Shown piece by piece: positions 4,703 through 32,005 of a stretch of 64,000 nt of DNA. Position 1 is the first letter of the stretch. The number at the start of each line of letters is the position of its first letter. Below the pieces are notes generated by a model, which was not told the origin of the DNA, ran no database searches, and saw nothing but the letters and a program-made list of their open reading frames with translations. Made by a program: the position numbers and the translations under genes. The stretch is from Terriglobales bacterium (GTDB lineage: Bacteria; Acidobacteriota; Terriglobia; Terriglobales; Acidobacteriaceae). Where the stretch lies: assembly GCA_035651655.1 (NCBI GenBank), contig DASRFG010000015.1, forward strand, positions 1-64,000. Direction: 5' to 3'.

Positions 4703-5023
4703 AGCTTGCCCAGGGCAGCGGAGGGCGGCTGCCCCTACGTGAGTGTCGTCGCCATGGGCAGCTTCTCTAAACACGTGGGCACAGACGCCTCGCCTGTGCT
4801 GGCCAGCCGAGGGCGGCTGCCCCCCGTGAGTATTCTCGCCGTGGGCAGCTTCTCTAAATACGTGGGCACAGGCGCCTCGCCTGTGTCGGGCAGCCGAGGG
4901 CGGCTGCCCCTACGTGAGTATTCTCGCCGTGGGCAGCTTCTCAAAACACGTGGGCACAGGCGCCTCGCCTGTGCTGGCGAGCAAAGCTTGCCCAAGGCAC
5001 GCGAGGGCGGCTGCCCCTACGTG
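4703..5023. repeat. tandem array of ~87-bp hairpin-rich repeats (4 copies)
   Basis: The core GAGGGCGGCTGCCCC recurs at about 4721, 4809, 4896 and 5003, giving periods of 88, 87 and 107 nt; the last interval holds an insertion containing AAGCTTGCCCAAGGC. Each unit carries two hairpins: GGGC-GGCT-GCCC, and a longer one built on GCACAGGCG-CCT-CGCCTGTGC with substitutions in some copies. Between them lies a conserved 'TATTCTCGCCGTGGGCAGCTTCTC' type stretch. The final unit is partial. The open frames through the array are by-products of the repeats and not genes. This resembles REP/BIME-type elements. No transposase is adjacent. Confidence 0.85.
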
Positions 5024-29085: not shown

Positions 29086-29559
29086 TCAGCGATGCGCCAC
29101 GCTTACCTTCACACGACTTCCCTTCTTCAACCTGGCTGGCGTGCCACTACGGTCAGTGCCCGCTACATCTGCCAGCGAGGTGTTCTCTAGAATGTCAGCG
29201 GCAGCATTGCGAACATCCATGAATACGCGATACAGCGCCCGGTGCTCTTTATCTTCATCAATCAAGTGCTGCAACGAGGTGACGTCGCCGAACGGGGCAA
29301 GCGGACCGTCAATGATACGAATGACCTCACTCAATACAATCTCGGACGGAGGACGCCGGAGCTGGTAGCCGCCGCGGGCTCCACGCACGCTTTCAACAAG
29401 CCGCGCGTTCTTCAACTGAAGCAAAATCAACTCTAGAAATTTCTCCGGAAGGTCTTCTTCCTGGGCGATGTCGTGAATACGAATCGCGCCCTGGTCGTAG
29501 TGCCGGGACAACATGATGAGGGCCTGCAGCGCGTAAAGACCTTTTTGTGAGACCTTCAT
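29086..29559 (-). CDS. Rrf2-family transcription regulator without cluster cysteines
   Basis: The 157-residue regulator has the Rrf2 winged HTH: 'MKVSQKGLYALQALIMLSRHY', 'IRIHDIAQEEDLPEKFLELILLQLKNARLVESVRGARGGYQL', wing 'RPPSEIVLSEVIRIIDG'. The dimerisation helix follows ('RALYRVFMDVRNAAADIL'). It has no cysteine at all, so it cannot carry an IscR/NsrR-type Fe-S cluster and resembles CymR, which senses sulfur status through protein partners. As first gene of a sulfonate-type importer operon, a sulfur-starvation role is a good inference. A 25-bp palindrome 23-47 nt upstream is the likely autoregulatory operator. Confidence 0.9.
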   Translation of the reverse strand: MKVSQKGLYALQALIMLSRHYDQGAIRIHDIAQEEDLPEKFLELILLQLKNARLVESVRGARGGYQLRRPPSEIVLSEVIRIIDGPLAPFGDVTSLQHLIDEDKEHRALYRVFMDVRNAAADILENTSLADVAGTDRSGTPARLKKGSRVKVSVAHR

Positions 29560-29581
29560 GGGAAATTGGGATTAAGTCTAG

Positions 29582-29606
29582 ATATCCTACTGTATAAGTA
29601 GGGTAT
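29582..29606 (-). promoter_or_regulatory. Rrf2-type 25-bp palindromic operator overlapping the promoter
   Basis: The half-sites ATATCCTACT (29582-29591) and AGTAGGGTAT (29597-29606) are separated by GTATA, with a single mismatch between arms. The spacing ATA-N3-NACT-N5-AGTN-N3-TAT is the same as in the IscR type 1 box. It overlaps a TATACA-like -10 on the minus strand, so binding would block transcription of the Rrf2/ABC operon. Confidence 0.7.
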
Positions 29607-29725
29607 TAGGTAGAGGAATCTTTTAATTCGCCGAGCTTCGCCCGAGAAAGCCTCGGTTTGTAGCCAGTTCCCAAGGTTTCAGTGGCTTTTACGCCGCTTT
29701 CTTAGGTAGTGAGCGGTGAATCATG

Positions 29726-29855
29726 GGAGATAGCATCTCCGGCATGTTTTGCAACATGCCTCGGTCCCATGCAGTGTGCAAAACACTGCGATGGGGTGAT
29801 TTTGCCTGCAACGCAAAATGCAGAAATTGCAACCATTTCGGTTCACCAGCGCTGG
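29726..29855. other. run of six consecutive short hairpins/palindromes, several with TGCAA in or beside the loop
   Basis: Listed in order: GGAGAT-AGC-ATCTCC (29726-29740); GGCATGTT-TTGC-AACATGCC (29741-29760); CCCATGCAGTGT-GCAAA-ACACTGC-g-ATGGG (29766-29795, one bulge); ATTTTGC-CTGCAAC-GCAAAAT (29799-29819); GAAAT-TGCAACC-ATTTC (29823-29839); and the palindrome CCAGCGCTGG (29846-29855). Hairpins two to five all place TGCAA in or across the loop. Stems differ in sequence while loops agree, as expected of an RNA whose loops are bound. It lies in the leader of the + gene at 29946, about 90 nt before its start. A structured leader RNA or sRNA is inferred; no known class is recognised. Strand is unknown, + being likelier. 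Confidence 0.5.
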
Positions 29856-29945
29856 CAATCTAATTGCACCTCGCTTGGTTGTCTGGATTCAGCCCACCAT
29901 CCCCCTGGGTTGATGCTCCACCTATCTTCCAAGGAGTTCTAAGCG

Positions 29946-31709
29946 ATGACGCGTCACATCTCTGTATGCCTGGCGTTAGCCGCCGGGTTGTTGTTGATTG
30001 GAAACACAGCGTGTAGCGGAGGGGGATCCAGTTCAAACAGTCCCGGCCCCACGCCACCACCAGCGCCACCTCCGCAAGCGGCGAGCATAGCCGTCTCTCC
30101 AACGTCGGTCACGGTTCCAGCGGGAGCGCAGCAACAGTTTACGGCCAAGGCGACTCCATCCAAGAGTTCATTGATCTGGACGGTCAATGGAGTGCCTGGC
30201 GGAAATGCGATTGTGGGAACAGTCTCGAACAAGGGCTTGTATACCGCGCCTTCGTCCCCGCCGGCCGCAGGGCAGGTGGAGGTTAAAGTGACACTTAAGG
30301 CGGACCAGACAAAATCGGCTGCCGCGCGTGTCTCGACTGTGTTTTCAAATGCCAGCCTCAAAGGATCATATGTATTCAGTGCGGTCGTGGTTGATGCAGC
30401 CGGGTTCACCTTTGCGGGTGGCGTCCTCAAAAGCGACGGAATGGGAGGGATCGTTGACGGTATAGAGGATAGAAATAGCTCCGTTGATGGTCCTACCACG
30501 AACCTGGCGGTCTCAGGGACTTATTCGGTCGGGTCCGACGGCCGGGGCGTTGCGACTATTTCCAATGGGTCCGGAAGTGCGACTTTTAGTTTTGTGCTCG
30601 CCTCAAGCAAGGGCGGCCAGATGATCCAATTTGACAGCTCCTCCGTCAGCTCGGGAGCAATATTGCAGCAAGATCCCACTGCTATATCCGATGTCGCCGG
30701 TACCTATGTCTTTGGGTTCCAGGGGCAGGCGATTACACCTACTACCAGGCAGTCGATGTCGAGTGTCGGTCAACTGGTATTCGCGGGTTCCGGAGCGGCC
30801 TCAGGCACGGAAGATCTGAATGAAGGCTCGACGCAGGCGACTCTGCCATTCAGCGCCACCTACGTACTGGGTGCCAACGGCCGAGGCCAGCTAAACCTCA
30901 CGAATTCGTGGGGCAGTAAGGCATACGCGTTTTATATTGTGGACCGCAGTAAGATTGAGTTGGTCAGTATTGACCCGAATCCTGGCCTTATTGAGGCCGG
31001 GGTCGCAGTGGCCCAACAGAATATTCCCTACAGCAACTCATCTCTGGGTTCGACCGCTGTCCTGCTAAGCGGGGTTGACCCATGCAACGAGTCACCCTTT
31101 GTTTCGGCCGCTCGGTTCGACACCGACGGGGCTGGCACAATTCTGAATGGCGTCCTGGACCAGACCTATCAGGGTGTTTTCACAGACGGGGCTTCGTTGT
31201 CCGGAGTTTACAACGTGGATGCAAATGGACGAGGAACAGCTTCATTCACGAGCTCGGCTGGAACGGTGAACTTTGTCTTTTGGCTGGCCTCCGTCGGCAA
31301 TGCACAATTCATGGCATTGGACACGGGCGTAGTAGCGGGTGGCGTTGCTCTTTCCCAAAAAGGTCTGCCGTTCTCAAACACCTCCCTGCAAGGCAACTTT
31401 GCGTTGGCGCTTACCGGTACCTCGGGTAGCGTGTCATCGGCGGCTTTGGCCCGAGTAAACTTCAGCGGCACGGGGACGTTCGGCGGAAAAGAGGACGTGA
31501 ATGTAGGTAGCGCGATGAATGCAGCCGTCCCGTTGACCGGCACATACTCGGTCGGCTCCGACGGGCACGGAACGGCGTCAATGACCGGTCTTGGAACCGT
31601 CCCCCTTCGACTGCACCAGGTAAACCAGTCAGAGGCCATCTTCATCTCTGCGGACCCCACTCAGCCAGTGATCGGGTTGGGCGAAAAGCAGTGTTCTGAT
31701 TGTCACTAA
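29946..31709 (+). CDS. Ig-like surface lipoprotein ending in CxxCH
   Basis: The 587-residue product starts at ATG with AAGGAG 10 nt upstream. It has a lipoprotein signal ending 'LIGNTAC' (lipid on Cys23), then a Gly/Ser and Pro linker and a bacterial Ig-like domain (about 45-120, 'SIAVSPTSVTVPAGAQQQFTAKATP'). Three or four imperfect repeats of about 115 residues follow, containing 'GTYSVGSDGRGVATI', 'ATYVLGANGRGQLNL', 'GVYNVDANGRGTASF' and 'GTYSVGSDGHGTASM'. These repeats are frequent in Acidobacteria secreted proteins. The last five residues are Cys-Ser-Asp-Cys-His, a CxxCH motif with no cytochrome domain. Role unknown; outer-membrane adhesion or scaffold is plausible. Confidence 0.75.
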   Translation: MTRHISVCLALAAGLLLIGNTACSGGGSSSNSPGPTPPPAPPPQAASIAVSPTSVTVPAGAQQQFTAKATPSKSSLIWTVNGVPGGNAIVGTVSNKGLYTAPSSPPAAGQVEVKVTLKADQTKSAAARVSTVFSNASLKGSYVFSAVVVDAAGFTFAGGVLKSDGMGGIVDGIEDRNSSVDGPTTNLAVSGTYSVGSDGRGVATISNGSGSATFSFVLASSKGGQMIQFDSSSVSSGAILQQDPTAISDVAGTYVFGFQGQAITPTTRQSMSSVGQLVFAGSGAASGTEDLNEGSTQATLPFSATYVLGANGRGQLNLTNSWGSKAYAFYIVDRSKIELVSIDPNPGLIEAGVAVAQQNIPYSNSSLGSTAVLLSGVDPCNESPFVSAARFDTDGAGTILNGVLDQTYQGVFTDGASLSGVYNVDANGRGTASFTSSAGTVNFVFWLASVGNAQFMALDTGVVAGGVALSQKGLPFSNTSLQGNFALALTGTSGSVSSAALARVNFSGTGTFGGKEDVNVGSAMNAAVPLTGTYSVGSDGHGTASMTGLGTVPLRLHQVNQSEAIFISADPTQPVIGLGEKQCSDCH

Positions 31710-31727
31710 CGTCGCTGTAATAGACCG

Positions 31728-31755
31728 AAAGCTGCCGCCCTGCGGCGGCAGCTTT
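31728..31755 (+). terminator. strong hairpin after the Ig-like lipoprotein gene
   Basis: AAAGCTGCCGCC-CTGC-GGCGGCAGCTTT is a perfect 12-bp stem with a 4-nt loop, 18 nt after the stop codon. Only TTT follows, but the A/T at the stem ends makes it usable on either strand. Confidence 0.75.
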
Positions 31756-32005
31756 CAACGACGGCCCGCCCGCAGACGGGGACGGAACGGACAATCCGGT
31801 TGCCTGTCCCCTGCTTCGGGGAACCGCTCCCCTCTTTACAATCGGTAAACCCGACGAAAGACCCCGTGTCCATCAAAAGGGCATCGCCGTGCCCTGGAAG
31901 CCGCCTCCACCACACCTTAGCTCCAGGCAACAGCTACTCTGGTTGACTCATCTATCAGATTTCTGGGCCGCCTCGGTGATCGAATAGTTTCTTCTGGAGT
32001 ACCCA

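Follow-up and report, generated by a model that had tools for sequence, protein, structure and literature searches.

Structured 5′ untranslated leaders, such as those of ompA and S-layer genes, stabilise or regulate the mRNAs of surface proteins. Multi-hairpin sponges of the CsrB/RsmZ type are free-standing RNAs with a terminator, in which several adjacent hairpins carry a repeated short loop motif (i.e. GGA). Elements of the MITE/REP type are palindromic and intergenic, with stems that are symmetric between strands. Finally, genome-wide surveys of ncRNAs have yielded orphan structured intergenic candidates (e.g. PMC6429828, PMC8632094, PMC11109978); such candidates are strongly structured, match no known family and rest on comparative support.

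An array of hairpins was examined in a 64,000-nt stretch of an acidobacterial contig, hereafter the window. As in the ompA and S-layer leaders, a run of stem-loops lies in the putative leader of an exported surface protein gene; the array differs in being known from sequence alone, without homologues, and in placing one loop motif on unrelated stems, which is not typical of these leaders. Adjacent hairpins with a repeated loop motif are shared with CsrB/RsmZ, but the motif is TGCAA and not GGA (the loops are AGC, TTGC, GCAAA, CTGCAAC and TGCAACC), no T-tailed terminator was seen just after the array, and a gene in the same orientation follows it. Palindromic, intergenic, strand-symmetric stems are also found in MITE/REP-type elements, whereas the array is single copy in its genome with no related copies found. 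The array resembles the orphan candidates in being strongly structured, intergenic and without a known family, but it has no comparative support and is not GC-rich against the window (G+C of about 50% versus 54%).

Organization of the hairpin array and its locus

The features of the locus are as follows (energies are for RNA).

29086-29559, minus strand: Rrf2-family regulator gene, divergent, upstream of the array, conserved in the family
29715-29722, plus strand: 5′ arm of the closing helix, GGTGAATC, paired with 29840-29847 in RNA folds
29726-29740, plus strand: hairpin P1, GGAGAT-AGC-ATCTCC; 6 bp, loop AGC, without TGCAA
29741-29760, plus strand: hairpin P2, GGCATGTT-TTGC-AACATGCC; 8 bp, TGCAA straddling the loop, -9.6 kcal/mol
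29766-29795, plus strand: P3 as extended by CCCAT/ATGGG; 7 + 5 bp with one bulged G, -18.0 kcal/mol
29771-29789, plus strand: hairpin P3, GCAGTGT-GCAAA-ACACTGC; 7 bp, loop GCAAA preceded by T
29799-29819, plus strand: hairpin P4, ATTTTGC-CTGCAAC-GCAAAAT; 7 bp, -3.9 kcal/mol alone
29823-29839, plus strand: hairpin P5, GAAAT-TGCAACC-ATTTC; 5 bp, 0 kcal/mol alone
29840-29847, plus strand: 3′ arm of the closing helix, GGTTCACC, in RNA folds
29846-29855: palindrome CCAGCGCTGG, at the right edge of the 130-nt region
29855-29867, plus strand: small hairpin GCAATCTAATTGC (GCAAT-CTA-ATTGC); weak, -1.6 kcal/mol
29946-31709, plus strand: gene for a lipoprotein-like surface protein with a Big_2 Ig-like domain (PF02368, 6.8e-07)

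Five perfect Watson-Crick stem-loops of 6, 8, 7, 7 and 5 bp occupy positions 29726-29839 of a 130-nt intergenic gap. The original prediction had described six stem-loops or palindromes standing almost end to end; the count becomes five perfect stem-loops, plus two palindromes that lie at the right edge or barely past it. A larger inverted repeat of 20 nt has P2 and P3 as its arms, and TTTTGC/GCAAAA is repeated in the stem arms of P4. In RNA folding, the closing helix encloses the array as one multibranched domain. P4 competes in these folds with a merged P4+P5 structure of -8.9 kcal/mol, and the minimum-energy fold contains the merged form with part of the TGCAA of both hairpins inside a stem.

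About 100 nt separate the end of the array from the start codon of the lipoprotein gene, which places the array upstream of this gene, as had been predicted. A lipobox-like LIGNTAC can be read in the encoded protein. Beyond the Rrf2 gene lie genes for a substrate-binding protein and then an ABC transporter ATPase. Two other sites were noted nearby. A 13-bp perfect hairpin, GAAAGCTGCCGCC-CTGC-GGCGGCAGCTTTC, without a T tail, follows directly after the lipoprotein gene (31727-31756). A 16-nt stretch at 29690-29705 (within TACGCCGCTTTCTTAG) exactly matches positions 1501-1516 of L002 in the same genome, ~190 nt upstream of an ATG; with an E of about 0.7, this match may be a promoter or chance.

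Non-random clustering of hairpins

Hairpin density was scanned by counting perfect stems (5 bp or longer) with loops of 3-9 nt. At five hairpins per 130 nt, with 66 bases in stems, the array was the maximum of the 64-kb window. In 5000 dinucleotide shuffles of the region (mean of 1.1 hairpins), neither five hairpins nor 66 stem bases occurred, and shuffles of the whole window (n = 20) peaked at 40-52 stem bases. The array also ranked first in 464 kb of its own genome (i.e. the window and a further 400 kb), the sample on which the background rate for hairpin density rests; the runner-up was an 88-bp tandem repeat inside the window. Folding as RNA gave a z of -3.9 for 181 nt, and the best 168-nt window had a z of -5.0, second among the 328 intergenic windows sampled. 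Both blastn and the covariance model found a single copy in the genome. The hairpin array is a real, non-random, single-copy structured stretch.

Other structured or repeated sites were observed in this genome. Approximately three 88-bp tandem units, rich in palindromes (GGGCAGCC...GGCTGCCC, CACAGGCGCCTCGCCTGTG), occupy 4716-4982 of the window; similar palindromes occur elsewhere (L087 ~12965, L099 ~19794), which suggests a REP-like repeat family. The most structured intergenic window sampled (L091 11880-12090, z -5.4) has a long rod-like predicted fold after a TTGACA-like box and no Rfam match. Two Acido-Lenti-1 RNAs (RF01687) are located at L101 13166-13213 and 18124-18171, as would be expected if the genome is acidobacterial.

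The shared TGCAA motif

TGCAA is present in or across four of the five loops (P2-P5). In 200,000 simulations that kept the stem and loop lengths but randomised their sequences, a 5-mer of any kind was common to four of five loops at a frequency of ~1e-5, a probability that is post hoc but general. No other cluster of three TGCAA(A/C) at such spacing exists in the 4.07-Mb genome. As P5 is unstable alone and P4 competes with the merged fold, presentation of TGCAA is firm only for P2 and P3; the four TGCAA loops originally proposed hold for these two and depend, for P4 and P5, on the folding energies and the merged fold. Given the larger inverted repeat of P2/P3 and the TTTTGC/GCAAAA arms of P4, palindrome copying may explain part of the motif sharing. 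TGCA is self-complementary, so that loop-loop kissing within or between transcripts would be possible.

The recurrence of this motif could instead reflect a cluster of DNA operators for a regulator recognising TTTTGCA/TTGCAA. In the sequence, TTTTGC/GCAAAA appears four times in alternating orientation within 75 nt, and the intergenic position between divergent genes would suit an operator region. However, the half-sites differ among the palindromes, the spacers vary, and TTTTGC-N3-12-GCAAAA was found at only six places in the genome versus two for a reversed control, a slight excess; we regard an operator cluster as improbable. All four TGCAA also fall in one reading frame (spacings of 27, 30 and 21) as Cys-Asn/Lys codons, raising the case of a 46-codon Cys-rich small protein (ATG at 29723 to TAA at 29863, 5 Cys) in which the hairpins would be incidental. 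The codon score of this frame (0.007) was below that of ~95% of true 46-codon gene pieces and in the range of false frames, there was no Pfam match, and tblastn in 100 relatives returned noise (best E of 0.009), giving no coding support for the frame as a gene. The in-phase spacing would arise by chance 1 in 27 times and the hairpins would be left unexplained, making a small protein very improbable indeed.

Homology searches

Rfam 15 gave no match at the gathering score and none up to an E of 10 on 29500-30000, in agreement, for this local region, with the earlier view that no known RNA class fits. A single-sequence covariance model had no convincing match in 150 family, 347 order and 396 phylum genomes (overlapping samples); weak matches (L047-L049, L081) had unrelated folds and were not the array. 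Within its own genome, the model matched only the array and its reverse complement. Using blastn against 60 relatives and 398 family genomes, weak matches were about as numerous as chance predicts; the three whose open frames were listed (L132, L133 and L007) were inside long open frames (glycosyltransferase-like for L132, phage-like for L007). Phages, plasmids and viral contigs yielded nothing convincing: a phage match (MT838379, E of 0.2) had no hairpin array, and exact 17-18 mers in IMG/VR hit 2 and 4 contigs, none carrying a hairpin array. A homologous structure in relatives, whose absence the original prediction had named as grounds for its own refutation, was not found in several hundred genomes by either method. 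The samples included no same-genus genome and stricter filters were applied in the large samples; hence the absence of a homologue is uninformative about recent function, and the null result is weak evidence against function and none for it.

By analogy with CsrB/RsmZ, the array could be a free-standing small RNA acting as a sponge that offers TGCAA loops to an RNA-binding protein. Repetition of a loop motif on unrelated stems would match this multi-hairpin design, but no sigma-70-like promoter was found for the array and no T-tailed terminator just after it, and the searches gave neither Rfam match nor homologue. Moreover, only two loops firmly present TGCAA and none contains GGA, so that a Csr-type sponge is not supported. 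We consider a sponge unlikely.

Comparison of the locus with relatives

The Rrf2 gene was present in 53 of 150 family genomes (E of 1e-15). No hairpin array was found upstream of Rrf2 at any of 29 relatives' loci; at four of these, the sequence available upstream was shorter than 1.2 kb. Among 15 lipoprotein-like genes elsewhere, the upstream regions were not unusually structured (z of -2.4 to +1.6), giving no sign that structured leaders are typical of the lipoprotein family. A scan for orthologs of the lipoprotein, one contig scan, returned a single distant match (L050, 34% identity) and no ortholog. The Rrf2 loci without an array and the lipoprotein-like genes without unusually structured upstream regions indicate that the array and its lipoprotein neighbourhood look lineage-specific.

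A separate observation concerns the Rrf2 gene itself. The palindrome CCTACTGTATAAGTAGG lies just upstream of this gene (window 29580-29610), and a comparable AT-rich palindrome, CTATT-N-AATAG, occupies the same place upstream of the Rrf2 start in many relatives. This palindrome is probably an autoregulatory operator.

Folding as RNA and as DNA

Strand preference depended on the stretch folded. For 168 nt, the plus strand was more stable than the minus strand (-68.4 versus -59.5 kcal/mol), and the single G-U pair of the closing helix means that this helix forms better on the plus strand. For 301 nt, the minus strand was slightly better (-115.3 versus -111.3 kcal/mol). The array also folds well as DNA (z of -4.3) and, with all hairpin stems perfectly Watson-Crick, is equally palindromic as DNA. 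Good folding on both strands and as DNA means that the sequence does not settle the choice between RNA and DNA.

These properties bear on a close rival to the leader reading discussed below, namely a recent palindromic DNA insertion or a relic, without RNA function. It could be, for example, a lone MITE-like element whose inverted ends are imperfect, or a quasi-palindrome that template switching has made perfect. Five stems that are all perfect, folding of both strands and of DNA, and absence of the array upstream of Rrf2 in the 29 relatives are as expected of an insertion, and, given the 20-nt inverted repeat with P2/P3 as arms and the TTTTGC/GCAAAA arms of P4, palindrome copying could by itself yield part of the shared motif. 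An insertion accords less well with a single copy in the genome and with the failure to find further copies in relatives, phages or plasmids. Neither a transposase nor a reverse transcriptase was present among the window genes scanned, and a retron or transposon context was discarded on these grounds. An insertion or relic is possible but on the doubtful side.

Discussion

Our preferred reading, held tentatively and at somewhat below even likelihood, is that the array is a structured 5′ untranslated leader, specific to this lineage, that belongs to the Big_2 lipoprotein gene. The array has no coding signal and is upstream of this gene on the same strand, a position that fits a leader. Transcription would start near 29710, placing the closing helix close to the 5′ end of the transcript, and the leader would adopt a multibranched fold, with GGTGAATC/GGTTCACC as its closing helix and up to four TGCAA loops presented. 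Such a leader might then influence, in cis, how stable its mRNA is or how well it is translated. Folding of 29709-30005 predicts that most of the ribosome-binding site is base-paired with sequence lying past the array, a model that hints at translational control. Transcription, action at the RNA level and any effect on the lipoprotein gene are what we infer. No sigma-70-type promoter match was found for the array, and the lack of a homologue in hundreds of genomes, leaving no covariation, counts against a leader.

A more elaborate possibility is a regulatory RNA restricted to the genus. Its four hairpins, each with a self-complementary UGCA(A) loop, would engage in kissing or in multivalent binding of an RNA-binding protein; we judge this to be as improbable as the operator cluster. 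The repeated protein-binding loops, multi-loop antisense RNA or sponge suggested in the original prediction are unproven roles.

The array is a statistically solid candidate that is comparatively unsupported. Were it to function, the array would represent an orphan structured leader, with a loop motif that recurs, in an apparently acidobacterial lineage; to our knowledge, RNA regulation has been little studied in such lineages.
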